From: Nipponacmea schrenckii
Taxonomy: Eukaryota > Mollusca > Gastropoda > Lottiidae
Direction of reading: 5' to 3'
Length of the DNA: 64,000 nucleotides
Assembly: GCA_030562195.1 (NCBI GenBank)
Contig: JAUJPP010000003.1
Location: 29,766,602-29,830,601, forward strand
Shown here: one piece after another, positions 1,492-62,330 of the stretch
Layout of the letters: each line of letters begins with the position of its first letter
Numbering within the stretch: position 1 is the stretch's first letter
The notes under the pieces: generated by a model
Told to the model about the DNA's origin: nothing
The model's input: only the letters and a program-made list of their open reading frames with translations
Databases searched by the model: none
Made by a program: the position numbers and the translations under genes

Positions 1492-2631
1492 TTTTTATAC
1501 GCCCACATGGAAATGTGGACGTATATTGCCGTCGCCCCTGTCCGTCTGTCCGTCCACATTTGTTGTATCCACGATAGAGGCTACAGTTTTTATCCGATCT
1601 TAATGAAACTTGGTATACATGTATATATTGATGATATCTCGGTCAAGTTCGAAAATGGAAATTATCGCATGAACGGTTTTTGAGTTATTGTACTTGACTT
1701 AAACGCGTCAAATTTGGGTTGTATCCACAATAGAGGCTACAGTTTTTATCCGATCTTAATGAAACTTGGTATACATGTATATATTGATGATATCTCGGTC
1801 AAGTTCGAAAATGGAAATTTTCGCATGAACGGTTTTTGAGTTATTGCCCTCGACTTAGTAAAAACGCGTCAAATTTGGGTTGTATCCACAATAGAGGCTA
1901 CAGTTTTTATCCCATCTTAATGAAACTTGGTATACATGTATATATTGATGATATCTCGGTCAAGTTCCAAAATGGAAATTATCGAATGAACAGATTTTGA
2001 GTTATTGCCCTTGACTTAGTAAAAACGCGTCAAATTTGGGTTATATCCACAATATAGGCCACAGTTTTTATCAGAAATTCAAATTTGACGATTTTTTGAT
2101 GAATAGTTTATGAGTAATTGCCCTTGACTAAGTAAAATTGCGTAAAAATTCTGTAGACACTATAGAAGCTACAATTATCTATGGATTTTAATGAAACTTG
2201 GTATGAGCATTGGAATTGATAAGAGGGCGGTCAAGTTCGATTTGGACGATTTTGTGATAAACAGTTTTGGAGTTATTGCCCCTGCCTCTATATTTGTTGT
2301 AGACAAAATAGAAGCTACAATTTTCAATGGATTTAAATGAAACTTGGTGTGAGCATTAGAATTGATAAGACACAGTCAAGTTCGAATTTGATGATTTTTC
2401 GATGAACAGTTTTTTAGTTATTGCCCTTGACTTAGTAAGATTGTGTCAAAATTTTTTTGTGGTTCAATAGAAGCTACAATTTCAATGGATTTTGATGAAA
2501 CTTGGTGTTTTTGAGTTTTTGCCCTTGACTTCAATATCCATTTAGTGAATGTTTTTGAGTCATTGCTCTATTTATTTTTCAAATTCAATGCTGCCAGTGG
2601 GCGTATGTTACCTTGCCTGGCAAGCTATCTT
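1492..2631 (+). mobile_element. HINE/pearl-like element, class A'/A, complete ends
   Basis: The left end TTTTTATACGCCCACAT folds back on ATGTGGACGTAT, followed by a short GTCC/GTCT microsatellite at about 1539-1558. Then come six or seven degenerate tandem cores of about 158 bp, each holding AATGAAACTTGGTAT and GAGTTATTGCCCTTGAC. The right end is CAGTGGGCGTAT, then a perfect hairpin CTTGCC-T-GGCAAG, then CTATCTTT. GTGGGCGTAT at the right is the inverted complement of ATACGCCCAC at the left. The architecture is that of bivalve pearl/CvA elements, placed by others with Helentrons. No protein is encoded. A 14-bp direct repeat (AAAAATAATGGACA) flanks it at 1477-1490 and 2634-2647. Confidence 0.8.
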
Positions 2632-3066
2632 TTAAAAATAATGGACAATTTTCATGAAATAGTGGACAGTTAGTGAGTAGTACAAACAACACTAATAGAT
2701 TCTACTAGAGAATGGATAAATACAACAAAAGATGACGTTATAGCTGTTATTTAATAATAGCTCAGTGACCCTCGTAACATTAAATATTAATTTTAAATAT
2801 TAAAAAAATAATAATAATAATTCTGTTTTATTTTATTATTCTTATGCTGAGTTACTTTACTTACGTTTTTTATTAGAATTAATAGGCCTTTTATCAGATT
2901 TAATACGTCTTCTTATCGAAATTAATACCGATGACAAAAATTTGCCTTTTACTTTTCACTTATGAGGGATCAACCGAAACCAAATTTCATAGGTACATTC
3001 TTCTGTGTAATGCAAACAGTTTTTCATATTTACCAACAGATTAATATTCAAAGCCAAATCAGTAGA
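2632..3066. other. Unassigned AT-rich spacer
   Basis: Holds a simple AATAATAATAAT stretch near 2807-2822 and ordinary AT-rich sequence. No coding or structural signal was found. Confidence 0.4.
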
Positions 3067-3860
3067 GCACGCTTAGCATAGCGGTAAGGCATTGTTATAA
3101 TAAAAATAACAAGTGGTTGCCTAGCAAGATACGCCCACTTTAAAATATATTTTCTGTTTTAACACAGGCAAAAACTCTAAGATTATTTAGGTCTAATCCA
3201 AGTTCTCGTCAATATAAATGTTCACACCAAATTTCATTAAAATCAGATGAAAACTGTATTGTCTATCGCAATCACAAGCTGCGTTTTGACTAAGTTAAGT
3301 GCAATAACTCAAAAACAGTATATCAACATGTCAATTTCGAACTTGACCAAGATGACATCAAATTCAATGATCACACCAAATTTCATTCCAATCAGATGAA
3401 AACTGTTGTCTCTATCTTGTTCACAAGTCTATTTCGACGCAATTTGACTTAGTCAAGGCCAATAACTCAAAAAACGTTCACCCAAAAATCGTCACAATCA
3501 AACTTGTCAAAGATTTCATCAATATAAATGTTAACACCAAATTTCATTCAAATCAAATGTAAATTGTGATCTCTATCGCGTTCACAAGCCAATTTTGAGG
3601 CGTTTTGACTAAGTCCAGTGCAATAACTCAAAAACCATTCATCGAAAAATTGCCAATTTCGAAATTGTCTGAGATCTCATCAATATAAATGATCACAGCA
3701 AGTTTCATTCAAATCCGATAAAAACTGTAGCCTCCATTGCGTTCACAAGCAATTGTGGACGGAAGGACAGGGGTGACGACAATATACAACCACATTATAA
3801 TGTGGGCGTAAAAAAAATATTATGGTTCAATACCCGTGATATAACACGAAACCAGATTGG
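3067..3860 (+). mobile_element. tRNA-derived SINE (or tRNA-like repeat) split by a HINE
   Basis: A box-A-like TAGCATAGCGGTAAGG lies at about 3074-3089, and a box-B-like GGTTCAATACCC lies at about 3832-3843. The two boxes are separated by a reverse-oriented HINE. With the HINE removed they are about 40 bp apart, which is the spacing of a tRNA gene promoter. Box B departs from the consensus at two positions, so this is a decayed SINE head or tRNA-like fragment rather than a functional tRNA. Outer limits are uncertain. Confidence 0.45.
3110..3815 (-). mobile_element. HINE class B, reverse orientation
   Basis: Read on the minus strand it starts with a ATACGCCCACATTATAATGT hairpin and GTCC-like sequence. 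It has four cores with the CATTTATATTGATGAGATC phrase and ends with TTTTAAAGTGGGCGTATC followed by TTGCTAGGCAACCACTTG. That right end is the class-B variant, in which the hairpin is TTGC-TAG-GCAA. It interrupts the SINE-like sequence around it. Non-coding. Confidence 0.75.
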
Positions 3861-4489
3861 TAAAGTTCCGAATCATGACCCAAGCCATTTGACGAAAAGG
3901 CAAGGACCTTGCAGAGGTCATTGGCGGTCATTAATCAGCAGTATGTTTTTTCAGTGATATTTTGTTTTCATGTGATTTAATCCCCATTATTAATATAATA
4001 AGCGATTATCTAAATAAGTAATTAAGATAACTAAATGTCATATTATACAAACTTTTTTGACCGTCAGGACCACTGATTAAGTGTTGGAAATCAGAAAAGA
4101 CAGAATGTCGTAATACTCTGGGAATTTGAAGAATTAACTTTAGAATTTGTCCTCGTGAGTGTCGCTAATATGCTGAAGCCGTTTTAATAATAATAGCCTC
4201 ATACAATATTAAGTGGTGAATATAAAATAAATAACTACAGTTCGATTTTCATTATAATTTCAAAAGTTATAAAACTTGTTTTGTGCCAATTTTTTTTACG
4301 CTGGGTAAAAGTAGACGGCGGTATTGACTAAAATAGCCGTCGTTTTTTCGCGGGCTGCCAGCTACTAATGACACCCCTGGATTTTAATTTGAAATATTAG
4401 ACAAAATAAAATAGTAACAACAAAAAAAACCTTTACAATGTGTCTATTTCATTCAAGCCAAATCACCAATTTACAAAGCTTATTATCCC
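3861..4489. other. Unassigned AT-rich spacer
   Basis: No open frame of note and no recognisable repeat end. It contains one short GC-richer patch (about 4300-4375). Confidence 0.35.
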
Positions 4490-5240
4490 TTTAAATCCAT
4501 TGATGATTGTAGCTTCTATTGTGTCTACAACAAATATAGAGGCAGATGCAATAACTTAGAAACTGTTTATCGAAAAGTCATTAAAATCGAACTTGACTAC
4601 CGTCTTATCAATTCCAATGCTCATACCAAGTTTCATTAAAATACATAGAAAATTGAAGCTTATATAGTGTCTACAACAAATAGATTTTTACCCAATTTTA
4701 CTTAGTCAAGGGCAATTACTCATAAAGTATTCATCGAAAAATCATCAAATTCAAAACCTAACCACTGCCTTATCAATTCCAATGCTCATACCAAGTTTCA
4801 TTCAAATGCATTGAAAATTGAAGCTTCTATTGCATCAACAATAAATTCTGATGTGATGTAACTAAGTCAAGGGCAATAACTCAAAAACCCTTCATCGAAA
4901 AATCTTCTAATTCGAACTTAACTGCCGTCTTATCAATTCCAATGCTCACACCAAGTTTCATTAAAATCCATTGAAAATTGTAGTTTCTATTGTGTCTACA
5001 ACAAATATAGAGGCAGGGGCAATAGTTAAAAAACTGTTTATCGAAAAATCATCCAAATCAAACTTGACTGCCGTCTTATCAATTCCAATGCTCATACCAA
5101 GTTTCATTCAAATTCATTGAAAATTGTAGCTTCTTTTGTGTCTACAACAAATGTTGTCGGATGGACCGATGGACCGATGGACCAACAGACGGACAGACAG
5201 GGGCGACGACAATGTACGTCCACATATTCAAGTGAGTCAA
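4490..5240 (-). mobile_element. HINE class A, reverse orientation, right end lost
   Basis: Five minus-strand cores of the class-A type (phrases such as ATGAAACTTGGTATGAGC read in reverse) run up to a CGATGGACCGATGG/ACAGACGG microsatellite at 5157-5200 and a degraded left hairpin at about 5214-5236. The right hairpin expected near 4490 is missing. Confidence 0.65.
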
Positions 5241-5340
5241 ATCCAAATTAAAAACACTGTCATATAAGAAAACATTTTTTTCCAATGTTTTCCACTACAA
5301 AATGAAGAGAAAAAGACAGACCACACACAAACGGGGTTAT
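5222..5340. repeat. HINE left hairpin joined to a Penelope-like terminal segment
   Basis: The sequence CCACATATTCAAGTG is followed at once by AGTCAAATCCAAATTA, then AACATTTTTTTCCAATG. The same junction recurs at 6346-6440 and 62145-62275, so it is a composite repeat rather than an accident. In the copy at 62145 the reverse complement contains a CTGAGGA...GAAAC arrangement typical of Penelope-like terminal repeats. Confidence 0.45.
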
Positions 5341-5460: not shown

Positions 5461-5539
5461 TATTTTACAACAATTTTCCAACAAGTTTCCAACTTTTTTC
5501 CAGCAAGCAACAACTCTGTTCACGCTGACACTATAATTC

Positions 5540-6530: not shown

Positions 6531-6647
6531 AATTAACAGTGCTTCTTCTAAAGCTTCAATTCCTTCTTGAATAGGTATGTTTGGATATAAACTTATGACA
6601 TAATTAACAGTGCTTCTTCTGAAGCTTCAATTCCTTCTTGTGGACGT
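6531..6647 (+). repeat. Short tandem duplication (about 70 bp)
   Basis: AATTAACAGTGCTTCTTCT with its following AAGCTTCAATTCCTTCTTG occurs at 6530-6574 and again at 6602-6646, with one base difference. It sits immediately before the HINE that starts at about 6640. Confidence 0.7.
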
Positions 6648-7714
6648 ATATTGTCGTTGCCCTTGTCCTTCAGTCTGTCGGTCCTTCCATCAACATTTGT
6701 TGTAGACACAATAGAAGCTACAATTTTCAATTGATTTGTATAGAACTTGGTATCAGCATTGGAGTCGATAAGATGGCAGTCAAGTTTGATTTGGACAATT
6801 TTTGAAAAACGGTTTTTGAGTTATTGCCCCTACCTCTATATTTGTTGTAAACACAATAGAAACTACAATTTTCAATGGATTTTAATGAAACTGGGTGTGA
6901 GCATTGGAATTGATAAGACGGCGGTCAAGTTAGAATTTGAAGATTTTTCAATTAATGGTTTTTGTGTTATTGCCCTTGACTTAGTTACATCACATCAAAA
7001 TTTATTGTTAATGCAATGGAAGCTACAATTTTCGGCACTGTTTTACTAACGCACCCCCCAACTTCCCGTAAAGCTATCCATTTGAAACTTGGCAGAGGGA
7101 TACTTATAAGTGTCCTGAATGTTCAATGGATTTGAACGAAATTTAGTATTAGCATTGGAATTGATAATGCGGTGGTCAGTTTTCGAATTTGACAATGTTT
7201 TGATGGTTTTAGAGTTATTGCCCTTGACTTAGTTACATCACATCAACATTTATTGTTAATGCAATAGAAGCTTCAATTTTTGATGGATTTTAATGAAACT
7301 TGGTATGAGCACTGGAATTGATAAGATGGCAGTCAAGTTTGATTTGGACAATTTTTTGATAAACGTTTTTTGAGTTATTGCCCTTGCCTCTACATTTGTT
7401 TCAATTCATTAAAATGAAACTTGGTATGAGCATTGGAATTGATAAGGCGGTGGTCAGGTTTCAAATTTGATGATTTTTTAATAGTTATGAGTAATTGCTC
7501 TTGACTAAGTAAAGTTGTGTAAAAATTCATTTGTTGTAGACACATTAGAAGCTTCAATTTTCTATGGATTTTTATGAAACTTGGTATGATCATTGGAATT
7601 GATAAGACAGTAGTCTTCAATATTCAGTGAATTTTATTTTGGTTATTGCTCAATTTTTTATTCAAATTCAATGCTGCCAGTGGGCGTATGTTACCTTGCC
7701 CGGAAGCTATCTTT
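6640..7714 (+). mobile_element. HINE class A, left hairpin lost
   Basis: Begins at GTGGACGTATATTGTCG without the upstream half of the hairpin. It has a degenerate TCGGTCC microsatellite, six class-A cores of about 160 bp, and a right end TGCCAGTGGGCGTATGTTAC followed by a hairpin with one base lost (CTTGCCCGGAAG). Non-coding. Open frames within it are accidents of the repeat. Confidence 0.75.
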
Positions 7715-9858: not shown

Positions 9859-11731
9859 CTTTTTATACGTCCACATGAAAATGTGGACGTATATTGCCAT
9901 CACCCCTGTCTGTTCGTCGGTCCGTCCGTCCGTCAACAATTACTTGTGTATGCGATACAGGCCAGAGTTTTTATCCGATTTGAATGAAACTTGGTATGTG
10001 TATTCATCTTGATAATATCTCGGACAAGTTCGAAAATGGCACGATTCCAGATGTCGGTTTATGAGTTTGGGCCCTTGATTAAATGAAAAAACATTAAAAT
10101 TTACTTGTGTACGCAATAGAAGCTGTAGTTTTTATCTGATTTGAATGAAACTTGGTATGTGTATTCATCTTGATAATATCTCGGACAAGTTTGAAAATGG
10201 CACGATTCCATATGTCTGTTTATGAGTTATGGCCCTTGATTAAATGGAAAAACGTTAAAATTTACTTGTGTATGCAATAGAAGCTGTAGTTTTCATCTGA
10301 TTTGAATGAAACTTGGTATGTGTATTCATCTTAATAATATCGAAAATGGCACGATTCCAGATGTCGGTTTATGAGTTTAGGCCCTTGATTAAATGAAAAA
10401 ACGTTAAAATTTACTTGTGTACGAAATAGAAGCTGTAGTTTTTATCTGATTTGAATGAAACTTGGTATGTGTATTCATCTTGATAATATCTCGGACAAGT
10501 TCGAAAATGGCACGATTCCAGATGTCGGTTTATGAGTTTGGGCCCTTGATTAAATGAAAAAACATTAAAATTTACTTGTGTACGCAATAGAAGCTGTAGT
10601 TTTTATCTGATTTGAATGAAACTTGGTATGTGTATTCATCTTGATAATATCTCGGACAAGTTTGAAAATGGCACGATTCCATATGTCTGTTTATGAGTTA
10701 TGGCCCTTGATTAAATGGAAAAACGTTAAAATTTACTTGTGTATGCAATAGAAGCTGTAGTTTTCATCTGATTTGAATGAAACTTGGTATGTGTATTCAT
10801 CTTAATAATATCGAAAATGGCACGATTCCAGATGTCGGTTTATGAGTTTAGGCCCTTGATTAAATGAAAAAACGTTAAAATTTACTTGTGTACGAAATAG
10901 AAGCTGTAGTTTTTATCTGATTTGAATGAAACTTGGTATGTGTATTCATCTTGATAATATCTCGGACAAGTTTGAAAATGGCACGATTCCATATGTCTGT
11001 TTATGAGTTATGGCCCTTGATTAAATGGAAAAACGTTAAAATTTACTTGTGTACGCAATAGAAGCTGTAGTTTTCATCTGATTTGAATGAAACTTGGTAT
11101 GTGTATTCATCTTAATAATATCTTGGACAAGTTCGAAAATGGCACGATTCCAGATGTCGGTTTATGAGTTATGGCCCTTGATTAAATGAAAAAACGTTAA
11201 AATTTACTTGTGTATGCAATAGAAGCTGTAGTTTTCATCCGATTTGAATGAAACTTGGTATGTGTATTCATCTTGATAATATCTCGGACAAGTTTGAAAA
11301 TGGCACGATTCCAGATGTCGGTTTATGAGTTATGGCCCTTGATTAAATGAAAAAACGTTAAAATGTACTTGTGTATGCAATTGAAGCTATAGAAGCTATA
11401 GTTTTCATCCGATATGAATGAAACTTGGTATGTGTATTCATCTTGATAATGTCTCGCCAGATGCCTGTTTATGAGTTATTGCCCTTGATTAAATGAGAAA
11501 ATGTTAAAATTTACTTGTGTACCCAATAGAAGCTGTAGTTTTTATCCGATTTGAATGAAACTTGGTATGTGTATTCATCTTAATAACATCTCGGACAAGT
11601 TAAAAAATGGTGCGATTCCAGATGTCGGTTTATGATTTATTGCTCTTGATTAAATGAAAAAACATGGAATATTCTGTTTGCTGAAGTGGGCGTATGTTAC
11701 CTTGCCTGGCAAGCTATCTTTCAATTTGATG
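9859..11731 (+). mobile_element. HINE class C with higher-order core array
   Basis: Left hairpin ATACGTCCACATGAAAATGT, then GTCC/GTCG microsatellite at 9905-9935, then about eleven cores of about 157 bp with TGAAACTTGGTATGTGTATT and ATGGCCCTTGATTAAATG. The right end is TGAAGTGGGCGTATGTTACC, the CTTGCC-T-GGCAAG hairpin and CTATCTTT. Blocks of three cores repeat with a period of about 472 bp; the core lacking CTCGGACAAGTT recurs at about 10329 and 10801. It is inserted in the 3' part of the Penelope-like element. Confidence 0.85.
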
Positions 11732-11734: not shown

Positions 11735-14700
11735 CTCCTATGTTTGTTAAGTCTATTTATTGAAGGGGGTAATGGTCTGTCCAACATACTGAAATTTACA
11801 TAATTTACAAGTTAGACAATACACTACAAAATTACCTTGGCAATTTAAAGAGTCTTTGATATAAAATGATTTTGAATGTCTATTGGTGATTTTGTTTGTA
11901 GTGTTCATTTTTATACGCCCACATTATAATGTGGTCGTATATTGTCGTCACCCCTGTCGGTCCGTCCATAATTGCTTGTGAACGCAATAGAGGCTACAGT
12001 TTTTGTCGGATTTGAATGAAACTTGCTGTGATCATTTATATTGATGAGATCTTGGACAAGTTCGAAATTGGTGATTTTTCGATGAATGGTTTTTGAGTTA
12101 TTGCACTTGCCTTAGTCAAAACGCCTCAAAATTGGCTTGTGAACGCGATAGAGATCACAATTTCCATTTGATTTGAATGAAATTTGGTGTGATCATTTAT
12201 ATTGATGAAATCTTGGACAAGCTTGATCATGACGATTTTTGGGTGAATGTCTTTTGAGTTATTGGCCTTGACTAAGTCAAATTGCGTCGAAATAGACTTG
12301 TGAACACAATAGAGACAACAGTTTTCATCTGATTGGAATGAAATTTGGTGTGATCATTGAAGTTGATGTCATCTTGGTCAAGTTCGAAATTGATATTTCG
12401 ATATACTGTTTTTTAGTTATTGCACTTGACTTAGTCAAAACGCGGCTTGTAATTGTGATAGACAATACAGTTTTCATCTGATTTTAATGAAATTTGGTGT
12501 GAACATTTATATTGACGAGAACTTGGATTAGACCCAAATAATCTTAGAGTCTTTGCCTGTGTTAAAACAGAAAATATATTTTAAAGTGGGCGTATCTTGC
12601 TAGGCAACCACTTGTTTCACAAGCTTTACACTTAGGTTTATGACAAGGTACACATCCAATATGTTTAGCACTATTTACATTTTCCAGACAATGTTTAAGT
12701 TTTTTTTCACTAAATAATTCCAATTTCTACTTCCTGCCACAATGATTTTCCTGTTCTTTAAAATGTCTGTCATTCTGTAGCTTGTCTTTAAAATGTCAGT
12801 GTCTTTGGCCATCATTGGTAGTCGTGGGTCATATGTATTTGTCCAAGGAATAATCTTCAGCTTCTTGTTATCTTGTTTTGTTTGTTGCTTGAGGAAAAGT
12901 AATTCAGATCGAGGTCTTTCTCTTGCTTTGTTGAACGCAGTTTCAATGAGTTTTTCCTTATATCCTGAACTCTTAAGATGGTTAGCAAACTGTAGTAATC
13001 GGTTGTTTTCCCATTCTATACGGCTACATATTCTTCTAATTCTAAGAGCACCAATAAAGGGTACTGATCTAAAAGTATGTCTGGGATGGCAGCTGCTAGG
13101 TGGTAGATAGTAGTGGCTAGCTGTTTCTTTAGTGAAGAGGTCAGTTACCATCCATAATAACTTTAACATCTAAAAAATTAACTTCATCTGGATCAATTTC
13201 CTTAGTAAATTTAATTTTCGGGTGAAGGTTATTAAGTTTATCTAAAAATTTATGTGAATCTTCTAATGATTTTGTTGACCTGGCCCAAATCTCATCTATA
13301 AATCTGCATGATATGTCTGGTTTTTCAGGTAAAGAATTCCAAAATTTATTCATCCAATAGGTCGTGTAGATATTGGCATATGTAACTGCAAAAGGTGTCC
13401 CCATTGAAGTTCCAGAGATCTGTCTGAAGAAGTCCCCATTAAATTCGAATTATTGTTACGTAGAACAAAGTCTGCTACTTTGTTATTTGTATTATTAGTT
13501 TTATCTAGGGCATCCTTCAAAGCATCAAGACCTTTAGAAATAATGATGTTTGGATAAAGGCTGATAACATCAAGGGTAAGTAGGTGACTATCTGTTGGTA
13601 TTGAACTGTCATTGAGAGATTGGATTTTCTGTAAAAAAATAAGTGTTGTCTCTAACAACTTCATGACAATAATCCTGAGCCACATCTTTTAATTTCCAGT
13701 CTAGCCATTGAGAAGCTTTGTACGTAGGGGCCATTATCTAACTGCATATGGGTCTGCCTGGTGGAATGTCTGATGTGGTTTTAACTTTATGTATTTTGCC
13801 AAGAATGTAAAAGTGGGCTGGTTTGCTAACTGGTCTGTGGAGGATGGCTTCTTTCTCTTTATCGTTTCTATTTAGGGGATTAATTAAATTTTTCAGTTGA
13901 TTGTGAATCTCATTGGAATTACCTTTCCCGAAGATGTTTCTCGCATTCTTTGATGTAATCTTCCCTATTCCAAATGACTATGCCACCTCCTTTGTCTGCT
14001 TTTTCTATAAAAATTTCTGGATCATTCCTTAATGTAGACAGTGCTGATCTTTCTTCTGTTGTTAAATTATCATGTGTTCTCTTTTCTGCGTGACTCTTGA
14101 CAGTTTGGTATTGGTTGAGACAAAAAAGCTCCAAAGCATCATCTCTGTCAGTTGGTGGTGACCAGTTACTCTTAATGTAGAGAGATTGTGGAAGTATTTG
14201 TTTTGATGGTTTCTCATGGAAATATTCAGTCAATCTTAGTCTTCTTTGGAATTCTCTGAGATCGGCTAGCTCTCTCACTTGGTCATATTTGGGAGGAACT
14301 GGGCAAAATGACAATCCTTTGCTGAGTAATTTAGATTCAGAATCTGAAAGTCTTCTAGAACTTACATTAAAGATGAAGGATTTTTTAGGCTGAACCAATT
14401 TAGCATTTCTTCCAAATTTCTTCCTTCCATCAAATCTTCTGCTTGTCTTTTACTTTACAGTATCAGGGAGTTGAATTTCTGTCGGCTTCAATGATGTCAT
14501 TTTTCTGTTGTGGGTACGTCTATTGGAATTCCTTATTTTATCACAACTCTTCTCTATAATTTGGACATTGTGTTGAAAATCTTAGGGGTTAATGGCTATT
14601 TGAAGTGTTTCCAACTGTGACCATAAGTCTTCTCAGTATCACGAATTTTGTTTCTAATAAGGGTTATTGCTTCACTGTTTAGATCCTTTGAAGTTTTATC

Positions 14701-16410: not shown

Positions 16411-16592
16411 TTATTATTTAATTCACATGGACGTATATTGGCGTTGCATCTGTCCGTCGGTCCATTTGTCAACATTTGTTGTAGATACAGTAGAAGGCAC
16501 AATTTTCAATTGATTTGTATAAAATTTACTGTGAGCATTAGAATTGATAAGATGGCGGTCAAGTTCGATTTTGATTATTTTTTGATGAACGT

Positions 16593-22503: not shown

Positions 22504-22639
22504 TCTTGAGTCTTTGCCCTTGACTTCAAAATTCAGTGAATTTTTTTTAGTTATTGCTCAATTTATTATTCAAATTCAATGCTGCCAATGTTGCCTGGCA
22601 AGTTATCTTCAGTTTGAGCTAGCGAGCTTCCCAGAGTAC

Positions 22640-27250: not shown

Positions 27251-27283
<33 letters not shown>

Positions 27284-47188: not shown

Positions 47189-49161
47189 TTTTTATACGCC
47201 CACATGAAATGGGGGGCGTATATTGTCGTCACCCACATCCGTCCGTCCGTCTATCCGTCGGTCCGTACGTCTGTCCACAATTGCTCGTAAACACTCTACA
47301 CGGTGTAATTCTTGACTGATTTAGATGAAACTTAATATGAGTGTTTATGATCACTCGAGGATGAACCCTATTGAAAATCAGCGAAATCGGAAAAAAATTA
47401 GTATGAGTTAGTGCCCTTGTTCTTGAATGGCTCGTAAACACTCTACAACGTGCAATTCTTGACCCATTTTTATTAAACTTGGTGTGAGAGTATGTTATAA
47501 CTCCAGGATAAACCCTATCGAAAATCAGCGAATTCAAAAAACATTTAGTATGAGTTATTGCCCTTGTTCTTGAAAACGCTTTCAATTTTAGCTTGTAAAC
47601 ACTCTTGAGAGAACAATTTTTAATGGATTTTAATGAAACTTGGCCTGAGTATTTGTTATCACCCAAGGATGAAGCCTATTGAAAACCAGTCAAATCGAAA
47701 AAAAATTAATATCAGTTATTGCCCTTGTTTTTGAAAACGCGTTCAATTTTTAGCTTGTAAACACTCTACAAAGCACAGTTATTGACCGATTTTGACGAAA
47801 CTTGCTGAAATTGTTTAATATCACCCAAGAATGAACCCTTTTGAAAAAAGCACATATCGAAATATATTTAATAGGAGTTATTGCCCTTGTTCTATAAAAT
47901 GTGTTGGATTTTTGCCTTGTAAACACTCTACAAGTCTCTTGAGCGATTTTGACATAACTTGGCATGAGTGTTTCTAATCACCTAAGGATGAACCCTATTG
48001 AAATTCAGTTAAATCGAAAAATATTTAGTATGATCAGTTATTGCCCTTGTGTTTGAAATCGCGTTCAATTTTTAGCTTGTAAGCACTCTAGAAAGAACAA
48101 TTCTTAATGGATTTTGATAAAACTTGGCTTGAGTATTTGTTTTTACCCAAGGATGAACCTTATTGAAAATCAAATAAATTGAAATATAATTAGTGTCAGT
48201 TATTGCCCTTGTGTTTGAAAACGGGTTAACTTTTTGGCTAATAAACACTCTAGAAGGTACACTTCATGACCAATGTTGACAAAACTCACTGAAATTGTTG
48301 GATATCGCAAGGGATGAGCCTAATTGAAAATTTAAAATATATCTAATATGAATTATTGCCCTTGTTTTTTTAAACTCGTTCGATTTTTGTCTCGTAAACA
48401 CTCTACATGGCAAAATTCTTGATGGATTTCGATGAAACTTGGTGTGAGATTGTGTTTTAACTCAAGGATGAATCATATTGAAAATCAGCAAAATTGAAAA
48501 ATATTTAGTATGAGTTATTGCCCTTGTTCTTGAAAACGCGTTTAATTTTAGCTTGTAAAGACTCTAGAAAAAACAATTCTTAATGGATTTTGATGAAACT
48601 TAGTTTGAGTATTTGTTTTTGAAAATCAGATAAATCAAAAAATATTTAGTGCAAGTTATTGCCTTTGTTCTTATAAACGTGTTCAATTTTAGTTTGAAAA
48701 CACTCTAGAAAGAACAATTTTGAATGGATTTTGATGAAACTTGGCTTTAGTATTTGTTTTCTCCCAAGAATGAACCCTATTAAAAATCATATAAACCGAC
48801 AAATATTTAGTTCAGTTATTGCCCTTGTTTTTGAAAACGCCTTAAACTTTTGGCTTGTAAACACACATTTTGACAAGCTCTCTGAAATTGTTTGATATCA
48901 CCCAAGGAAGATCCCATTAAAAATATCAAAATATTATTAAGGGTGAACCCTATAGCAAATCATGAAAATACTGAAAAATATTTAATGAGTTGTTATAAGG
49001 TACTATTCCTGACATTTTTTAAAGAAAATAGAGACCCTAGAAAAAAAGTATATGGCGGAAGGTTGAATATTTTAGTCCACCAATTGTTACCTTACTGAAA
49101 TTTTTTTATTCAAAATAAAGGCTGCCAGTGGGCGTATATTACCTTGCCTGGCAGCTATCTT
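47189..49161 (+). mobile_element. HINE class E, complete
   Basis: Left end TTTTTATACGCCCACATGAA, mixed GTCC/GTCT/GTCG block at 47239-47275, about eleven cores, right end TGCCAGTGGGCGTATATTAC with a hairpin lacking one base (CTTGCCTGGCAG) and CTATCTTT. It lies inside a class-B core. Confidence 0.82.
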
Positions 49162-49228
49162 TATTGGTGAGGTCAAAGAGTAAATATTTACCCTGCAAAT
49201 AATACTGACTGTTTTACCAGATAGATAG

Positions 49229-49230
49229 TC

Positions 49231-49273
<43 letters not shown>

Positions 49274-49432
49274 CTGTCTGTCCGTCCGTCCGTCCGTCCG
49301 TCCGTCCGTCCGTCCGTCCGTCCGTCCGTCCGTCCGTCCGTCCGTCCGTCCGTCCGTCCGTCCGTCCGTCCGTCCGTCCGTCCGTCCGTCCGTCCGTCCG
49401 TCCGTCCGTCCGTCCGTCCGTCCGTCCGTCCA
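49229..49432 (+). repeat. Long GTCT then GTCC tetranucleotide microsatellite
   Basis: About 12 GTCT units followed by about 38 nearly perfect GTCC units. This is the microsatellite module of the HINE that continues at 49433, expanded well beyond the 3-8 units seen in the others. The apparent proteins of alternating Thr-Asp-Gly-Arg on the minus strand are translations of this repeat. Confidence 0.95.
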
Positions 49433-51647
49433 CATTTATTGTATCCACGATAGAGGCTACAGTTTTTTTCCAATCTTAATGAAACTTGGTATACATGTAT
49501 ATATTGATGATATCTCGGTCAAGTTCGAAAATAGAAATTATCGTATGAACGGTTTTTGAGTTATTGCCCTTGACTTAGTAAAAACGCGTCAAATTTGGGT
49601 TGTATCCACAATAGAGGCTACAGTTTTTATCCGATCTTAATGAAACTTGATATACATGTATATATTGATGATACCTCGGTCAAGTTCGAAAATAGAAATA
49701 ATCCCATGAGCGGTTTTTGAGTTATTGCCCTTGACTTAGTATAAACGTGTCAAATTTGGGTGGTATCCACAATAGAGGCTACAGTTTTTATCCGATCTTA
49801 ATGAAACTTGGTATACATGTATATATTGATGATATCTCGGTCAAGTTCGAAAATAGAAATAATCCCATGAGCGGTTTTTGAGTTATCGGCCTTGACTTAG
49901 TATAAACGTGTCAAATTTTGGTTGTATCCACAATAGAGGCTACAGTTTTTATCCGATCTTAATGAAACTTGGTATACATGTATATATTGATGATATCTCG
50001 GTCAAGTTCGAAAATAGAAATAATCACATGAGTGGTTTTTGAGTTATTGCCCTTGACTTAGTAAAAACGTGTCAAATTTGGGTTGTATCCACAAGAGGCT
50101 CCAGTTTTTATCCGATCTTAATGAAACTTGCTACACATGTATATATTAAGGATATCTCGGTCAAGTTCGAAAATGGAAATTATCGCATGAACTGTTTTTG
50201 CGTTATTGCTCTTGACTTAGTAAAAACGTGTCCAATTTGGGTTGTATCCACTATAGAGGCTCCAGTTTTTATCCGATCTTAATGAAACTTGGTATACATG
50301 TATATATTAAGGATATCTCGGTCAAGTTCAAAAATGGAAATTATCGCATGAACGGTTTTTGAGTTATTGCCCTTGGCTTAGTAAAAACGCGTCAAATTTG
50401 GGTTGTATCCACAATAGAAGCTACAGTTTTTATCCGATCTTAATGAAACTTGGTATACATGTACAGTGAAACCTGGCTATAACGAATCATACGGGACCGA
50501 ACGAATTAGTTCGTTATAGCCGAAATTCGTTATATCATTTTCTATGTCCGCCATCTTGGATAAAGTCAAAATTACCCATACCATCCCAAAGGAAAGGAAC
50601 GATCGCAGTTTTAAACAATACTAAACTTTTAGCATATAATTTATTGCTAATTCACATAAATTATAATCATGCATTTTCGTAGTGTGTTTAAAGATCGAAA
50701 AGCGTCCACAAATGATGACAACTTCATTGTCTATGATTTCTTCTTCGTCATCAGATTCTGGGGTGGTGTCATATTTCACCGACATAACACTCTCTACAAT
50801 TTCACCGTCGCTCGGTCTATCCTCTGTAATAATATGTTCATCGACTTTTAAAAAATCGTCCAGTCTTACGGTATCTGGTGCATCGGTAAATTTATTCACC
50901 TTGTACCAAATTCTCTTTAATTCACCTACACGCATGTCGTTCTTTTCGTCATCGGATTCGGAATTTTATGGGCTTTGTACGTAGCATGTTGATGTTGAGA
51001 ATCGAATGACACTTGAAGACGGTTATCATTATTTACGATTTCGCCGTATGTTTATTGTTTTGACCGGTAAACAAAATGAATATCTTGGGACTGTGGGTGA
51101 ATAGAGGAGGACAAAAGGATTACACTAAATGTTAATTAAGTTTAATTGATAAATAACAATTGATAGTAGGGAGTCGGGAGGTGTGAAATTCTGTGACAAT
51201 TTATTGCCGTGATTGGGTTGATTGAGATTATCGGTTAATTATGACTAATCCATTCGTAATAACCATTAATTTTGGTACATAGGGTGTCAGTTTCTATTCG
51301 TTATTACCGAAAATTCGCTACTAGCATTTCGTTTTATCCATTTATTTTTCAATGAAATTAGTGCAGTGAAAAACGGGACTTTTAAATGTGTTCGTTATTA
51401 CCGGTTTTTCGGTATAAGCATGTTCGTTATAAGTGAGGACCACTGTATATATTAATGACATCTTGGTCAAGTTCGAAAATGGAAATTATTGCAAGAACGG
51501 TTTTTGAGTTATTGCCCTTGACTTAGTAAAAACGTGTTAAATTTGGGTTGTAACCACAATAAAGGCTACAATTCTTATCCGATCTTAATGAAACTTGGTA
51601 TACATGTATATATTGATGATATCTCGGTCAAGTTCGAAAATAGAAAT
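49433..51647 (+). mobile_element. HINE class A', ends lost, split by a Tigger-like element
   Basis: Seven cores of the GTATCCACAATAGAGGCTAC type at 49433-50461, resuming at 51446-51647 after the DNA transposon. It lacks a left hairpin and stops at a palindrome at 51648. Confidence 0.75.
50464..51445 (-). mobile_element. Tigger/pogo-like (Tc1-mariner) element with transposase remnant
   Basis: The ends CAGTGAAACCTGGCTATAAC and the complement of TTATAAGTGAGGACCACTG share CAGTG and TATAACGAA, the usual Tigger/pogo termini. TA flanks both sides (50462-50463 and 51446-51447), as expected for this superfamily. The minus strand at 50935-50621 encodes an acidic stretch including DEHIITEDRPSDGEIVESV, resembling the C-terminal tail of Tigger-like transposases. 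The HTH and DDE catalytic parts are absent. It lies in a HINE core. Confidence 0.8.
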
Positions 51648-51720: not shown

Positions 51721-51945
51721 AGTTTAACAGTCTTTTTCTTTTGATTGTGATTGTGTTTTCACTCCCTGAGGAAGTGTGTTTTTATCCACACGAAACGTTG
51801 GAGAATAAATGGTTTTTATTGGCAGAACTTAATTATTTTAATCTTCATACATATTTACTGCCAAGGCATCATAGTTTTTTACAACTAAGATCACCATTTG
51901 GAACTTCTTGGTTTGGTTCAACTCTACATTTGACTTGGAATCTAC
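51721..51945 (+). repeat. Penelope-like terminal segment with hammerhead-like core
   Basis: CTGAGGA (51766-51772), stem GTGTG (51774-51778), 8-nt loop, CACAC (51787-51791), then GAAAC (51792-51796). This matches the hammerhead-ribozyme conserved core (CTGANGA, stem II, GAAA) apart from an extra A before the stem. CGTTGGAGAATAAATGG follows, as in terminal repeats of Penelope-like elements. Stems I and III were not resolved. Confidence 0.5.
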
Positions 51946-53181
51946 ACATGAAAATGTGTACGTATATTGGTATCACCCCTGTCCGTCCGTTGATCCGTAC
52001 GTACGTCCGTCCGTCAACAATTACTTGTGTATGCGATACAGGCCAGAGTTTTTATCCGATTTGAATGAAACTTGGTATGTGTATTCATCTTGATAATATC
52101 TCGGACTAGTTCGAAAATGGCACGATTCCAGATGTCGGTTTATGAGTTTGGGCCCTTGATTAAATGAAAAAACATTAATATTTACTTGTGTACGCAATAG
52201 AAGCTGTAGTTTTTATCCAATTTGAATGAAACTTGGTATGTGTATTCATCTTGATAATTTCTCGGACAAGTTCGAAAATGGCACGATTCCATATGTCGGT
52301 TTATGAGTTATGGCCCTTGATTAAATGGAAAAACGTTGAAATTTACTTGTGTACGCAATAGAAGCTGTAGTTTTCATCTGATTTGAATGAAACTTGATAT
52401 GTGTATTCATCTTAATAATATCTCGGACAAATTCGAAAATGGCACGATTCCAGATGTCGTTTTATGAGTTATGGCCCTTGATTAAATGAAAAAAACGTTT
52501 AAATTTACTTGTGTATGCAATAGAAGCTGTAGTTTTCATCCGATTTGAATGAAACTTGGTATGTGTATTCATCTTGATAATATCTCGGACAAGTTCGAAA
52601 ATGGCACGATTCCAGATGTCGGTTTATGAGTTATGGCCCTTGATTAAATGAAAAAACGTTAATTATTACTTGTGTACACAATAGAAGATATAGTTTGCAT
52701 CTGATTTTAATGAAACTTGGCATGTGTATTCATCTTGATAATATCTCAGACAAATTCGAAAATGGCACGATTCCAGATGTCGGTTTATGAGTTATGGTCC
52801 TTGATTAAATGAAAAAACGTTAAAATATACTTGTGTAAGCAAAAGAAGCTATAGAAGCTATAGTTTTCATCCGATATGAATGAAACTTGGTATGTGTATT
52901 CATCTTGATAATGTCTCGCCAGATGCCTGTTTATGAGTTATTGCCCTTGATTAAATGAGAAAATGTTAAAATTTACTTGTGTATGCAATAGAAGCTGTAG
53001 TTTTTATTCGATTTGAATGAAACTTGGTATGTGTATTCATCTTAATAACATCTCGGACAAGTTCAAAAATGGTGCGATTCCAGATGTCAGTTTATGAGTT
53101 ATTGCCCTGGATTAAATGAAAAAACATGGAATATTCTGTTTGCTGAAGTGGGCGTATGTTACCTTGCCTGGCAAGCTATCT
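51946..53181 (+). mobile_element. HINE class C
   Basis: Left hairpin ACACATGAAAATGTGTACG, GTCC/GTAC microsatellite at 51980-52015, seven to eight class-C cores and right end TGAAGTGGGCGTATGTTACC plus the CTTGCC-T-GGCAAG hairpin and CTATCTT. The sequence matches 9859-11731 but lacks its higher-order duplications. Confidence 0.82.
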
Positions 53182-54540
53182 TTGAGTTTTTGCCCTTAAC
53201 TTCAATATTAATTCAGTGAATGTTTTTTGAGTTATTGCTCTATTTATTTTTCAAATTCAATACTGCCAGTGGGCGTATGTTACCTTGCCTGGCAAGCTAT
53301 CTTTGAGTTATTGCCCTTGACTTAGTAAAAACGCGTCAAATTTGGGTTGTATCCACAATAGAGGCTACAGTTTTTATCCGATCTTCATGAAACTTGGTAT
53401 ACATGTATATATTGATGATATCTCGGTCAAGTTCGAAAATAGAAATAATCGCATGAGCGGTTTTTGAGGTATTGCCCTTGACTTAGTAAAAACACGTCTA
53501 ATTTGGGTTGTATCCACAATAGAGGCTACAGTCTTTATCCGATTTTAATGAAACTTGGTATACATGTATATATTAAGGACATCTCGGTCAAGTTCGAAAA
53601 TGGAAATTATCGCACGAATGGTTTTTGAGTTATTGCCCTTGACTTAGTAAAAACACGTCAAATTTGGGTTGTATCCACATTTGAAGCTACAGTTTTTATC
53701 CGATCTTAATGAAACTTAGTATACATGTATATATTGATGATATCTCGGTCAAGTTCGAAAATAGAAATAATTGCATGAGCGGTTTTTGAGTTTTTGCCCT
53801 TGACTTAGTAAAAACTCGTCAAATTTGGGTTGTATCCACAATAGAGGCTACAGTTTTTATCCGATCTTAATGAAACTTGGTATACATGTATATATTAAGG
53901 ACATCTCGGTCAAGTTCGAAAATGGAAATTATCGCATGAACGGTTTTTGAGTTATTGCCCTTGACTTAGTAAAATCTTGTCAAAATTTTAGTTTCGATGC
54001 AATAAGTCCTCCAATTTTCAGAGGATGTTGATGAAACTTGGTGTGAGCATTGGAATTGATTAGGCCTCAGTCAAGTTTGAATTTGACAGTTTTTCAATGA
54101 ATTGTTTTAAGTTATTGCCCTTGACTTAGTAAAATTTCGTCAAAATTCTATTGTTGTTGCAATAAGAAGCTTTCATTTCAAAGGATTTTGATGGAACTTG
54201 GTGTAAGCATCAGAATTGATAAGACGTTAGTCAAGTTTGAATTTCTGACTTTTTTTAACAAATGGTTTTTGGGTTATTGCTCTTGACTTAGTAAAATTGC
54301 TTCAAAAATATTTGTGGGTGCAAAATAGCTACAATTTTTTAATAGATTTGATGAAACTTGGTATGAGTATTGAAATAGATAAGATGGTGGTCAAGTTCTA
54401 AATTAACAATTTTCCATGAACAGTTTTTGAGTTTTTGCCCTTCAATATTAATTCAGTGAATGTTTTTTGAGTTATTTCTCTATTTATTTATCAAATTCAA
54501 TGCTGCCAGTGGGCGTATGTTACCTTATGTATATCTTTTA
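53182..54540 (+). mobile_element. Two stacked HINE right portions (class A and A'/A)
   Basis: 53182-53302 is the last core and right end of a class-A element (ATACTGCCAGTGGGCGTATG and full hairpin). At once GAGTTATTGCCCTTGACTTA begins a series of A' and A cores (53303-54500), ending in another right end TGCCAGTGGGCGTATGTTAC whose hairpin is destroyed (CTTATGTATATC). These are the outer shells into which the class-C element and its neighbours were inserted. Confidence 0.7.
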
Positions 54541-55394: not shown

Positions 55395-56333
55395 ATTTCG
55401 TCCGCCGATTATGAATTGCACCCTTTGCTTCCTCAGTGTAAAGTTTATCTAATTTAGATTTTATTATTTCATATTGTGAACAATGTGTTTGATAATAACT
55501 GCAGTCAATGGATAATAATTTAATTTCTAGTTCTGCTAATTCTTTACTTACCTTTTATTTATCTCTTAATCTTTTGTTTCTTTTACAGTATGTAATTGTG
55601 CTTGTTTTGTATAGGTAACATCGTAAGTTAAAGTCGCATTGAATTTCCAAAGAGCTGGACTTCGTTTTGGTTCATTTTCAGTTAAATTTATTGTTATTGC
55701 GGAGTGATCACTAAGAATATTCAGAATTATTTTACAGTTTGTTAGACTATCTTGAATAACCTCAGACACAAGCCAGAAGTCTATCCTACTGTGTATGGTG
55801 GGTTTATATTGTTTCCATGTGTACTCTTTAGAAGTTGGCCGCATATATCTATATATATCTATCAGTTGATAAGAATTTATTATGTTCAATATTTCACTCA
55901 GTCCCTTCTTTTTTTTCTTATAATTACCGCCTAATCTATCGATCTCTTTATTCAAAACATTGTTAAAATCGCCCCCTGTAATTACTGGGTAATTATGGTC
56001 ATCTAAAGTTGTTTGAATTACTTTGTTTAATTTTTGGTAGTATATAGCCTGATCTTTATCCTGGATCGGGCTATATGTGTTCATTAAAATATATGTCGTT
56101 TGAAATATAAGCGCGGCAAAAATAATATAATAACCGTTTAGGTCTGGGTAATGTTTTAAGCTTTCTATATTAGCGTTGTTATTTAATAATATAGCCGTTC
56201 CAGCCGAATTACTTTTGCCATGTGAAAATAGATTAGTCCCTCCCCATTCATCACTCCACCTTTTCTCATCATAAGGTGTACTGTGCGTTTCTTGCAAGCA
56301 AAATATATCAGAATTTATATCTTTTAGCCACAA
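55395..56333 (-). pseudogene. LINE ORF2 endonuclease domain (L1/Tx1-type), no RT
   Basis: The minus strand encodes an apurinic-type endonuclease: LQETH near the start, GTAILL, NTYSPIQDKD, GGDFNNVL, SRIDFWLVS and LSDHSAI. These landmarks belong to the metal-binding and catalytic residues of the exonuclease/endonuclease fold used for target-primed reverse transcription. A frameshift occurs at about 55560. The linker then continues (SKELAELEIKLLS...LYTEEAKGAI) to about 55400, after which the element stops without its reverse transcriptase. Confidence 0.88.
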
Positions 56334-56825
56334 AAATAGTTTATGATGTTTTAGTCGACTTGCATGCCTCTTACATTGAGTGATAATAAGTTTATTTCTG
56401 ACATGTAGGTTTTATAAAGTGTAAGCCCATGAAGGTTTTTAAATAAAAAACACCAATACTGTTATCGAAGTATGATGCTTTGCTGATAGAATAGTTCATT
56501 GATCTTAGTCAATTTCAAAGAATTTTTATTTTATCTTTTCATGTTTTATAGAATTATAGAATTGTAATTAATAAGAAAAATTAATCTGAATAATTTTTAC
56601 TTTATGATGGTAATTGTATTTCATTAATTTATTAATAACTATTACAACATAACTTTAATAAATAAATATTTCATGTTTCTGAGGTGATATCTAATTGGTC
56701 AAAAATTGGGTATCTGTCCCTTTAATGCCTGGAATTTTTAAAGCTTCTGATGATTACTTTTTTCATATAAATAAATAATGTTAAAAGAGAAGTTGACACT
56801 TATCTGACCCTCATGTTAGGTAAGT
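56334..56825 (-). other. Spacer between ORF1 and ORF2 of the LINE
   Basis: AT-rich, no domain. The start of ORF2 upstream of LQETH (the usual TLNVNG-like region) is not readable in frame here, so the spacer may include decayed ORF2 sequence. Confidence 0.45.
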
Positions 56826-57986: not shown

Positions 57987-58472
57987 TTGGCTTGTGAACG
58001 CGATAGAGATCACAATTTCCATTTGATTTGAATGAAATTTGGTGTTATCATTTATATTGATGAAATCTTGGACAAGTTTGATCGTGACGATTTTTGGGTG
58101 AACGTTTTTTGAGTTATTGGCCTTGACTAAGTCAAATTGCGTCGAAATAGACTTGTGAACACGATAGAGACAAGAGTTTTCATCTGATTGGAATGAAATT
58201 TGGTATGATCATTGAAGTTGATGTCATCTTGGTCAAGTTCGAAATTGACATTTCGATATACTGTTTTTGAGTTATTGCACTTGACTTAGTCAAAACGCGG
58301 CTTGTGATTGCGATAGACAATACAGTTTTTATCTGATTTTAATGAAATTTGGTGTGAACATTTATATTTACGAGAACTTGGATTAGACCTAAATAATCTT
58401 AGAGTTTTTGCCTGTTTTAAAACAGAAAATATATTTTAAAGTGGGCGTATCTTGCTAGGCAACCACTTGTAT
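57987..58472 (+). mobile_element. HINE class B, right portion
   Basis: Begins in mid-core (GGCTTGTGAACGCGATAGAG) and ends with TAAAGTGGGCGTATCTTGC then TAGGCAACCACTTGT. It is nearly identical to the right part of 11908-12616. Confidence 0.8.
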
Positions 58473-58599: not shown

Positions 58600-59770
58600 G
58601 TACAACATCATGTTTGGCTACCAGAATGATTTGTAGAGATCATAACTACGTTATGATTTAGTTTGCCTTCCAGTTGAGTAATAAAATATTATCTCATGCT
58701 TTGGTAGTGTGAAGTGACCATACCATACCATACCCATGCTGTGATTTTTTCACTATGTCATCCACGATTGGTTGAATTTTGGCTCATCGATGAGGCACAT
58801 GTTCATTTAGGGTCTGTGTGTGCCACATGTAACAATGTGTGGAACAGGAGGCAAAATTGATCATGGTCCATTGCATCCTTGAAGAATGGTACTGTCAACG
58901 TCCATTCCTCTGTCCAGTTGGAGTCCACAGTTGGCTTCTTCACCATACCCATGTTCAACAGAATGCGTATAAATCTGTACATTTCATCTGTGTTAGTGTC
59001 CTTCCATTGTCGTAAACGGGATTTAGGTTTAAGAACGGTATTTCGTATCTTCTCCGCAGCATAAATGGTTTATTTCAGTAATCAATTTAGTCATTAGATC
59101 ATCATCAAAGAAGAGTTTGAAAAAATTTATGGTCTCTGGTTCTGGTTCGTCATCCACGGTTGGCTTTTTCACCATACCCATGTTCAACAGAATGCGTATA
59201 AATCTGTACATTTCATCTGTGTTGGTGTCCTTCCATCGTCGTAAACGGGATTTAGGTTTCAGAAGGTATTTCGTATCTTCTCCGCAGCATAAATGGTTTA
59301 TTTCAGTAATCAATTTAGTCATTAGATCATCATCAAAGAGGAGTTTGAAAAAATTTACGGTCTCTGGTTCGTCATCCATTATATGATCAATTGTAAATCT
59401 ATGATGCACAGGCCCTAGATCATTGACTGTTACATCAGTCCACTGTCTGGCTTTGTTAATATTACGGTTTCCCACACCCTGGCCGCGACAGCCTGGAATT
59501 CCTCCCCCCCCTTGGGCATCCGCGTCCACGACTTGTGTCACCTGTCCTTGACCAGCAACACTTTCCTCAGAAATTGAACTGTTATTAGAAATATAGTCAC
59601 TAGATACATTGTCATCGTGGTCAATATCTGATTCTGAACTAGCATGATAAGAATCCGCTTCTGATTCCCATGAAGATAAAAACATTACCTGCCCCCTGAT
59701 TATCCACTTCGAAACTGTCAACAATGTCTGATTCTTGTTGTAAAAATGTTTCATCATTCGGATCGTTCAT
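58600..59770 (-). pseudogene. piggyBac-type transposase, N-terminal part, internally duplicated
   Basis: Minus-strand DDE_Tnp_1_7 (piggyBac) remnant. An acidic Ser/Asp-rich N-terminus is followed by FFKLLFDDDLMTKLITEINH, RRWKDTNTDEMYRFIRILLN and MGMVKKPTVDD, matching the start of the piggyBac catalytic region (ETN, EM..F..I.L.MG). A 225-bp piece is then repeated: TINFFKLFFDDDLMTKLITE begins again at about 59140 and ends at 58925, running on into WTEEWTLTVPFFKDAMDHDQ (about 58900), where a stop follows. ATG at 59770 reading MNDPNDETFLQQESD is a more piggyBac-like start than the ATG at 59757, with a frame shift between. The catalytic Asp residues lie downstream and are absent. Confidence 0.8.
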
Positions 59771-60070: not shown

Positions 60071-60071
60071 A

Positions 60072-61405: not shown

Positions 61406-61735
61406 CCTAGACCTTTGGTGACAGTGACCTTAAGTAGGTCAAAGGTCATTGATATATATACATTTTGAATGTGATTAGATTTACTCTAAAAAAAAAAAAA
61501 TGAGATGGGCGTGGCACATCCAGGTAAACTTCCAATTTACCATTTATATCGGTCAGCGAATTACATCAGTAGGAAATAACGTTTATCAAAAAAGTACTTT
61601 GCACACAGATACCTCATTGCTTTGGCCTTATACTCCCAGAAAATCAGATGTTTCGGCCTGTCTGTTGCAATTTTGCGACATTAGCAAAGTCCCACTCTGT
61701 GCCACAAGTGGCTCTAGTTTCTATTTAAATTTATA
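61406..61735 (-). repeat. GGTCA-family repeat, reverse orientation
   Basis: Contains AGGTCAAAGGTCA (61436-61448), GAGATGGGCGTGGCACATCC and, at its end, GCAAAGTCCCACTCTGTG then CCACAAGTGGCTCTAG, the inverted complement of 33191-33225. It gives the 5' terminus of the family. Confidence 0.7.
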
Positions 61736-62050
61736 AAAATTGACAGTCTTTTGCCATTTGTTGCTTTCTGGCTTTTGAATCTTTCTGTTGCAAAGCTTCC
61801 TGATTTTAAAGAAACCAATATTAAACAATTTTGCGACAAAGTTTTATTTCTTTCTGTCTCATGGATTAAAAATAAAACCATGCACTAATGTAAGAAGTTG
61901 GAATGCAATTCGGTTAAATCCTTTACCCAAGATTTGCAATTTAAAATTTAATTGCAAAAATTTTAAGGTTGTCGAAATATGTTAAATATTGTAAGCAATT
62001 CTCGTAATATTTACTGTTGTACACATTTGCCTTGAATTGATTTATTATAG

Positions 62051-62132
62051 GAAGATGGAACATTAAGAGCCAATCCCAATTTCAATGTAGAACACGATGT
62101 TCAGGTACTTAGAAAATCAATGAAAGGAGCAG
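62051..62132 (+). CDS. Annexin exon: start of first annexin repeat
   Basis: 82-bp exon between TTTATTATAG and GTGAGT. It begins in phase 0 and leaves one base of a split Gly codon. The translation contains NFNVEHDVQVLRKSMKGAG, the beginning of annexin repeat 1 (family pattern FD.E.DA..LRKAMKG.G). In annexins the helix A to AB calcium loop starts here, and an intron splitting this Gly codon is usual. Phase 0 at its 5' side fits the exon at 31773-32264. The remaining repeats lie beyond the window. Annexins bind acidic membranes in a calcium-dependent way. Confidence 0.9.
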
Positions 62133-62144
62133 GTGAGTTTGTTT

Positions 62145-62330
62145 TGTTATATGCCCACATGAATATGTGAGTCAAATCCAAATTAGAATACACTGTCATA
62201 TAAAAAAACATTTTTTTCCAACGTTTCCCTCTATTACAATAGAGCTTCCTCAGGGAGGGCCAAATACAAAATGAAGAGAAAAAGACAGTCACAAAAATTA
62301 TGACGTCATCATTCTAATGACCTCACCAGT
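62145..62330 (-). repeat. HINE left hairpin joined to Penelope-like terminal segment
   Basis: TATATGCCCACATGAATATG then TGAGTCAAATCCAAATTA, as at 5222 and 6346. The complement at about 62260-62215 reads CTGAGGAAG, stem CTCTAT-TGTA-ATAGAG, then GGAAACGTTGG: a hammerhead-like core with a longer stem II than that at 51766. Confidence 0.5.

Follow-up and report, generated by a model that had tools for sequence, protein, structure and literature searches.

Among the Helentron-associated interspersed elements (HINEs), 11 Cg_HINE elements of Crassostrea gigas have been described that combine subterminal inverted repeats (subTIRs), an inverted repeat, a GTCY-like microsatellite, tandem repeats, a 3′ palindrome, and a TT target (PMC7492417). 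Related flanks occur there on unrelated repeats, the 3′ palindromes examined are able to fold, and the autonomous partner is left unresolved in that paper. For DINE-1 of Drosophila, a stem that changes in a compensatory way has been proposed to act as terminator (PMC2374699). In Helraiser, a bat Helitron, the left end is essential; deletion of the hairpin reduces efficiency to 8.8% and increases read-through, exchange of the stem keeps around 90% of activity, and a change of the loop acts like deletion (PMC4778049). Repeats of comparable build occupy a 64,000-nucleotide stretch of the genome of the gastropod Nipponacmea schrenckii (contig JAUJPP010000003.1, positions 29,766,602 to 29,830,601; the whole stretch is hereafter the window). 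These repeats very probably constitute several related HINE families, that is, non-autonomous Helentrons moved in trans, with a left start end and a right stop end.

The resemblance to Cg_HINE, as described in PMC7492417, takes in the left subTIR with its partial inverted repeat, the GTCY-like microsatellite (in several), tandem repeats of around 140–180 bp, the right subTIR with its palindrome, T-rich targets, and related flanks on unrelated repeats. The likeness is drawn from the published description; a difference is that a single left end is found here with several right-end types. DINE-1 is similar in its 13-bp subTIRs, partial inverted repeat, GTCY microsatellite, central repeats, TT target, and a 3′ stem-loop with a proposed terminator role and a stem that differs among species (PMC2374699, PMC4067079); its letters are other ones, however, and its stems differ between species, whereas here they differ between families within one window. 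The Pearl elements CvA, CvE, and CvG (named in PMC11136912) share central repeats of around 160 bp, and DTC84 and MgE of bivalves a comparable architecture, in both cases by the description in PMC7492417. Helraiser and other Helitrons have in common with the present elements a 3′ hairpin near the end, which in Helraiser works as a terminator, and possibly de novo 3′ ends (PMC4778049), but possess 5′-TC and CTAG-3′ termini and, as characterised in PMC2374699, no inverted terminal repeats.

Ends, insertion sites, and proposed mobility of the elements

The window is AT-rich, animal-type DNA (GC content 34%), and the anatomy and shared ends of its elements, lettered A to F by type, are directly visible. 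On the left, the 12-nt motif ATACGCCCACAT leads into a partial inverted copy of itself; a GTCC/GTCT-like microsatellite comes next, and then tandem cores with a unit of mostly around 161 bp. On the right stand the subTIR GTGGGCGTAT (variant GTGGGCATAT in F), a short spacer, a stem-loop, and a tail of around 8 nt. With two mismatches or fewer, ATACGCCCACAT has 50 matches over both strands, a count that takes in second arms and right subTIRs, as opposed to a mean of 2.69 and a maximum of 7 in shuffles. The common end motif, the GTCC/GTCT microsatellites, the tandem cores, and the right GTGGGCGTAT followed by a stem-loop had all been proposed in the initial annotation, and each is confirmed, the last in nine A/C/E-type, four B-type, and one F-type end.

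Fifteen left ends were tabulated, excluding those lacking an arm (such as 6638, 28783, 46728, and 51941). At least four T directly precede 13 of the 15, and the left 12-mer is identical in eight of them across A, B, D, and E. Subterminal inverted repeats, as expected of HINEs, are present at both ends: arm 1 and the right subTIR pair at 10/10 in five of ten two-ended elements, at 9/10 in four, and at 7/10 in F. The two ends of one element have 10 bp in common; the rule given in PMC4067079 for one Helentron family is at least 11 bp of identical subTIRs.

A 3′ palindrome following the right subTIR, a further HINE feature, is likewise found. A profile search recovers nine A/C/E-type and four B-type right ends, further A-type ends, decayed or incomplete, at 31725, 54509, 22591, and 31690, and weaker uncounted matches; the right ends of F (27962) and D (18006, 19897) were found by direct inspection and pattern scans. 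Right stems exist as they had been quoted in the initial annotation, although at two of the nine A/C/E-type ends (7680, 49128) the 3′ arm is one base short through a deletion, and a further A-type end, the tenth (54509), has lost its stem. The B stem comprises four pairs (T-A, T-A, G-C, C-G) that are letter for letter the inner four of A, with the outer pair lost; its standing as an independent, new stem is thus rejected, TTGC/GCAA being shared with A. A scan of the window for the F type with three mismatches or fewer gave one further place, 5175, which lies in a GTCC-type microsatellite and is no end. A weak D right type, absent from the initial annotation, occurs at 18006 (without subTIR) and 19897; its stem has three Watson-Crick pairs and one G-T, no better than shuffles, and D as a strong stem type was rejected on its shuffle-level stem length and folding energy. 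The tails of A and F are alike (CTATCTTT and CTATTTTT).

A covariance model built on the A/C/E right ends finds all nine of them at E 1.8e-10 or better, followed by 54509 and 31724. B ends score E 0.011–0.066 and F 0.06, with the left arm 27215 also reaching 0.047, and D (19897) scores only E 0.32, ranked among left arms. By this model, membership of F, B, and D is hence marginal or absent. Rfam at gathering thresholds returned no matches.

Insertion into a T-run is plain for one copy, for which empty sites exist. The E element 43488–45630 splits a T6 run that is uninterrupted at 9298 (minus strand) and 15367 (plus strand), with no duplication beyond T; its left flank matches both sites over 40 nt (90% identity), and its right flank matches the first over 70 nt (94%) and the second over 29 nt (86%). 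The empty-site sequence is itself another dispersed repeat. Across the window, similar sequence was found elsewhere for nine of 16 right junctions and eight of 16 left junctions. Nesting is equally plain: among the 16 right junctions, five (22473, 53148, 53269, 27962, and 18006, of types E, C, A, F, and D) fall within another HINE core, each time in the T-tract that precedes (G/T)AGT(T/C)(A/T)TTGCC.

Under the HINE reading, a Rep, helicase, and endonuclease encoded elsewhere would move the elements in trans. Recognition and start probably take place at the left end common to the types, with its poly-T, ATACGCCCACAT, and partial inverted repeat. At the right subTIR GTGGGCGTAT, with its stem-loop and tail of around 8 nt, a rolling-circle product would probably terminate, to be placed then into a T-run. 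The left end is taken as start and the right stem-loop as stop because of the analogy with Helentrons (PMC4067079) and Helraiser (PMC4778049), and strand polarity, nicking, and terminator function may be assigned by the same analogy. The terminator idea is sound, but it has already been published for DINE-1 (PMC2374699) and tested in Helraiser (PMC4778049). The elements also show the lack of coding capacity typical of HINEs: among the 54 open reading frames (ORFs) scanned, those overlapping them match only low-complexity microsatellite translations and no transposition protein. Stem length in the 28 nt after the subTIR exceeds that of shuffles for A (P 0.0042) and F (P 0.0028), and a stem as long as either occurs at random window positions at a frequency of 0.022.

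Several observations weigh against the HINE reading. A Rep or helicase domain is found in none of the 54 stop-to-stop ORFs of at least 90 amino acids in the window, a scan that covered unbroken ORFs of that size lying wholly within it. The sole endonuclease match, ORF 55566–56411, is nearest to the LINE-1 ORF2 endonuclease (E 1.2e-26) and was rejected as a Helentron piece on that ground. The A element 1497–2632 lies between 22-nt direct repeats of 91% identity (1472–1497, 2632–2655), which is unexpected for a Helentron; at the nested copies 26751 and 29338, host sequence between the flanks seems to have been lost, and at the nested copy 27197 the flanks seem to overlap. Stem length in B and D is at shuffle level (P 0.24 and 0.35). 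DNA folding energy is matched in 11 of 200 shuffles for A, 7 of 200 for F, 64 of 200 for B, and 91 of 200 for D, and for the 36-nt E end 31405, subTIR included, in 52 of 200; on this measure A and F stand out only moderately, and the right fold alone is modest. Furthermore, a loop change in Helraiser acts like a deletion (PMC4778049), whereas the right loops here vary (CTG, ATG, TAG, and GGC). Little weight attaches to two other searches, made with exact patterns in viral and prokaryote collections: left-end and right-end patterns had no matches (0 and 0) in viral contigs, and a left-end pattern had none in prokaryote genome contigs. The end sequences, searched as words in the literature, retrieved no title on transposable elements.

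Tests for covariation of the terminal stems

Both terminal hairpins had been described in the initial annotation as covarying, with a perfect hairpin on the left and, on the right, a fold kept while all stem bases change. On the left, each of the 15 tabulated ends has 8–12 of 12 positions paired between its two arms, a partial pairing like that of DINE-1. Only the C end at 9865 pairs at 12/12 (arms ATACGTCCACAT/ATGTGGACGTAT), the remaining 14 pairing at 8–11, and the two quoted arms occur together in none of the 15; at 26751, the two left arms overlap. Types A, B, and D have a standing mismatch at the sixth arm position, where the base C faces A or T, while the C-type end 9865 has a T-A pair there and thereby pairs fully; the E left ends have C-G at this position but mismatches near the loop. 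The left fold is strong in the three left ends tested (z −4.6, −3.5, and −6.5), and the helix pairs far better than slid versions of itself (16.7%–65.7%). Among the 14 left ends (13 distinct) used for the covariation test—26751, in which the loop is missing, was omitted—87.0% of cells pair versus 87.2% in shuffles, and one pair is changed on both sides versus a shuffle mean of 1.0. A perfect, covarying left hairpin was thus rejected, with pairing of 8–11 of 12 in 14 of the 15 ends and double changes at shuffle level.

On the right, seven of the nine A/C/E ends are free of gaps (three distinct sequences). Their five stem pairs are invariant, with no double changes, and three of 36 columns are variable; in two decayed A-type ends, pairs are only lost or weakened. 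MAFFT alignments, both of all right ends and of the 13-nt stems, misplaced the stems of F, B, and D, and a fixed hand register was therefore used for pair counts across types, a register that assumes the stems correspond and has no control. Within it, no pair is changed on both sides in any type except F and D. The single F copy keeps five of five pairs, four of them changed on both sides, and differs at eight of ten stem letters; in D, with its weak stem, three of five pairs are changed on both sides.

The covariance model proposed for the right ends, built here from window copies, does find the A/C/E ends, but its alignment of 17 matches contains no double changes and, with gaps at each pair in 7–8 of 13 distinct rows, carries little information. 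Compensated change in the right stem is thus seen in F, in one copy (four of five pairs), and weakly in D, and not in A/C/E or B. As a general statement, conservation of the fold through change of all stem bases is not supported, the A/C/E stem being invariant, B having the same four pairs, and D lying at shuffle level. More double changes than in controls were not found for the hairpins, and the covariation claim is weak.

Cores, right boxes, and possible end-module exchange

Cores were compared using 16 seeds, and boxes using nine elements with one monomer each. Fifteen of the 16 core seeds find a match among the rest; matches between E and non-E seeds are confined to stretches of 22–71 nt, and the 172-bp core seed 28928 matches no other seed. 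The cores do not, therefore, form the single family that had been supposed. What stands of the proposed single HINE superfamily with several end types is its HINE-like character, its common left end, and its several right-end types. A and C cores are 85% identical over 89 aligned nt, A and B monomers 78% over 144 nt (E 2.0e-31), and A and E cores are alignable over only 32–46 nt.

The right ends follow a different pattern. Compared with A over the last 36 nt, C is identical, the E ends 31405 and 45596 show one difference each, and 22473 shows three. Over the 71-nt right box with gaps counted, part of which is filler that aligns poorly, identity is 69%–70% for A-E, 52% for A-C, and 33%–34% for A-B; for the left box, it is 84% and 80% for A-B and 76%–78% for A-E. 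According to PMC4067079, members of one Helentron subfamily share at least 80% identity over the last 60 bp, and on the 71 nt compared here the types fall into separate subfamilies. Under a simple binomial with equal rates assumed, the chance of 36 unchanged letters is around 3e-5 at 25% divergence and 0.003 at 15%, and that of ten unchanged stem letters 0.06 and 0.2, respectively; some change would be expected of stems able to drift freely with compensation. The A/C/E right box thus appears to be preserved as sequence and not merely as a fold: because it is nearly unchanged while the cores diverge, either its letters are constrained or the box has recently been exchanged. The remaining right-end types are separate alternatives and do not grade into one another by covariation.

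How the right-end types arose can be read in more than one way. It is about evenly balanced whether they came by exchange of modules or by formation of a new 3′ end—through recombination of nested copies or read-through to another terminator—instead of by stepwise compensation. A swapping of end modules is suggested because the A core resembles that of B (78% over 144 nt, with A and E cores aligning over 32–46 nt only), whereas the A right box resembles that of E (70% across 71 nt, with 31405 and 45596 agreeing with A at 35 of the final 36 nt) and not that of B (33%–34%). Consistent with this, the left end is common to all types, copies are nested within one another, and PMC4778049 documents the formation of de novo 3′ ends by Helitrons. 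C, however, is without such conflict, its core (85% over 89 nt) and last 36 nt both matching A, and fits simple descent. Moreover, the right types bearing a subTIR keep nearly the same ten letters and the A and F tails (CTATCTTT and CTATTTTT) are alike, so that the ends are not wholly new, and the comparison is limited to nine elements with one monomer from each.

It is rather doubtful that the right palindrome owes its conservation to protein binding in double-stranded form and not to folding as a single strand. Such a role would suit the retention of ten of ten stem letters in the seven gap-free A/C/E ends alongside core divergence of at least 15%, but F pairs perfectly despite eight of ten changed stem letters, and a recent exchange of boxes would yield the same identity. 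A broader scheme, more speculative still and on balance improbable, is a mix-and-match system in which one left (start) end is combined with several exchangeable right (stop) modules that move between core families by recombination among nested copies. The T-tract before GAGTTATTGCCC in the cores would then act as a self-made landing site, and the arrays would breed nested insertions and new combinations. Least convincing, and very improbable, is an origin as miniature inverted-repeat transposable elements of the terminal-inverted-repeat type, with subterminal inverted repeats and moved by a DDE transposase: the inverted arms close to both ends, the same older interpretation of DINE-1 (PMC2374699), and the 22-nt direct repeat around 1497–2632 would fit, but the clean empty site of 43488–45630 shows T-run ambiguity only and the right inverted repeat lies around 26 nt inside the end.

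Element inventory and neighbouring sequences

The elements interpreted above as HINEs are on the plus strand unless noted. The A element 1492–2632 has its left end at 1497, A cores, and a right end at 2597 with stem CTTGC-CTG-GCAAG and tail CTATCTT. An A-like element (6638–7714) lacks the first left arm and has its right stem broken by a deletion, and A right ends occur at 53269–53304, in the T-tract of another A core, and at 54509–54538, where the stem is lost. An A-type microsatellite with cores spans 49230–50463 without recognisable ends; the (CGTC)n microsatellite beside these cores (49230–49431, around 50 units) is the longest in the window.

B elements lie at 3109–3817 (minus strand; left end 3811, right end 3138, stem TTGC-TAG-GCAA), 11908–12615, and 26751–28184. 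The last is nested in an E core and itself contains the sole F element (27192–27994; stem CGATG-GGC-CATCG, tail CTATTTTT). A separate B right end is found at 58441–58470. Of the two C elements, 9860–11721 has the sole 12/12 left hairpin, with T-A where A, B, and D mismatch, and 51941–53183 has a degraded left arm; the right end of the latter (53148) falls within an A-type core, in its T-tract.

The D element 16592–18021 lies within an x-type core and has a right tail without a subTIR. A chain of D left ends (18807, 19230, and 19636) with one D right end (19897) occupies 18802–19926; its partial cores look as if truncated copies had been joined or inserted into each other, and left end 19230 is placed where a D core has its CACAATTTTT site.

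Five E elements were located. For 21594–22508, the left end was not found; its right end is at 22473, and it sits within the last monomer of an A-type host, in the T-tract, the decayed right end of that host being at 22591. The element 29333–31440 is nested in a repeat with 172-bp cores (G), no right end was found for 40472–41965, and 43483–45630 is the copy for which the paralogues 9298 (minus) and 15367 (plus) serve as clean empty sites. The fifth, 47189–49162, adjoins a truncated B element (46728–47190) and has a one-base deletion in its right stem. A left end at 32359–32386 is followed by a short, diverged E-like core, with no right end found.

The x-type HINE 4490–5236 (minus strand) has an altered left end, and its right end was not found. 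Left arms ATATGCCCACAT occur at 6346, 8246, and 62149 (plus); those at 6346 and 62149 are followed by a different, mutually shared sequence, TCAAATCC...ACACTGTCATATAA. At 5214–5300, the same sequence stands reversed and fused to the x element's left end, as if the palindrome had served as the junction.

Among other features, a piece of a DDE_Tnp_1_7 transposase (59029–59766) overlaps a 229-bp tandem duplication (58924–59370), and a THAP domain is encoded at 62612–63031. A putative 27-residue exon piece at 62051–62131 matches annexin A4 (E 1.7e-5) and ends around 17 bases before a HINE-like left arm.

The idea of a terminator with a compensatory stem is not new. What the window adds is a dense, well-nested HINE-like set in which one left end is found with several right ends. 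Extended genome-wide, this set could test whether module swapping or compensated mutation underlies the diversification of Helentron terminators.

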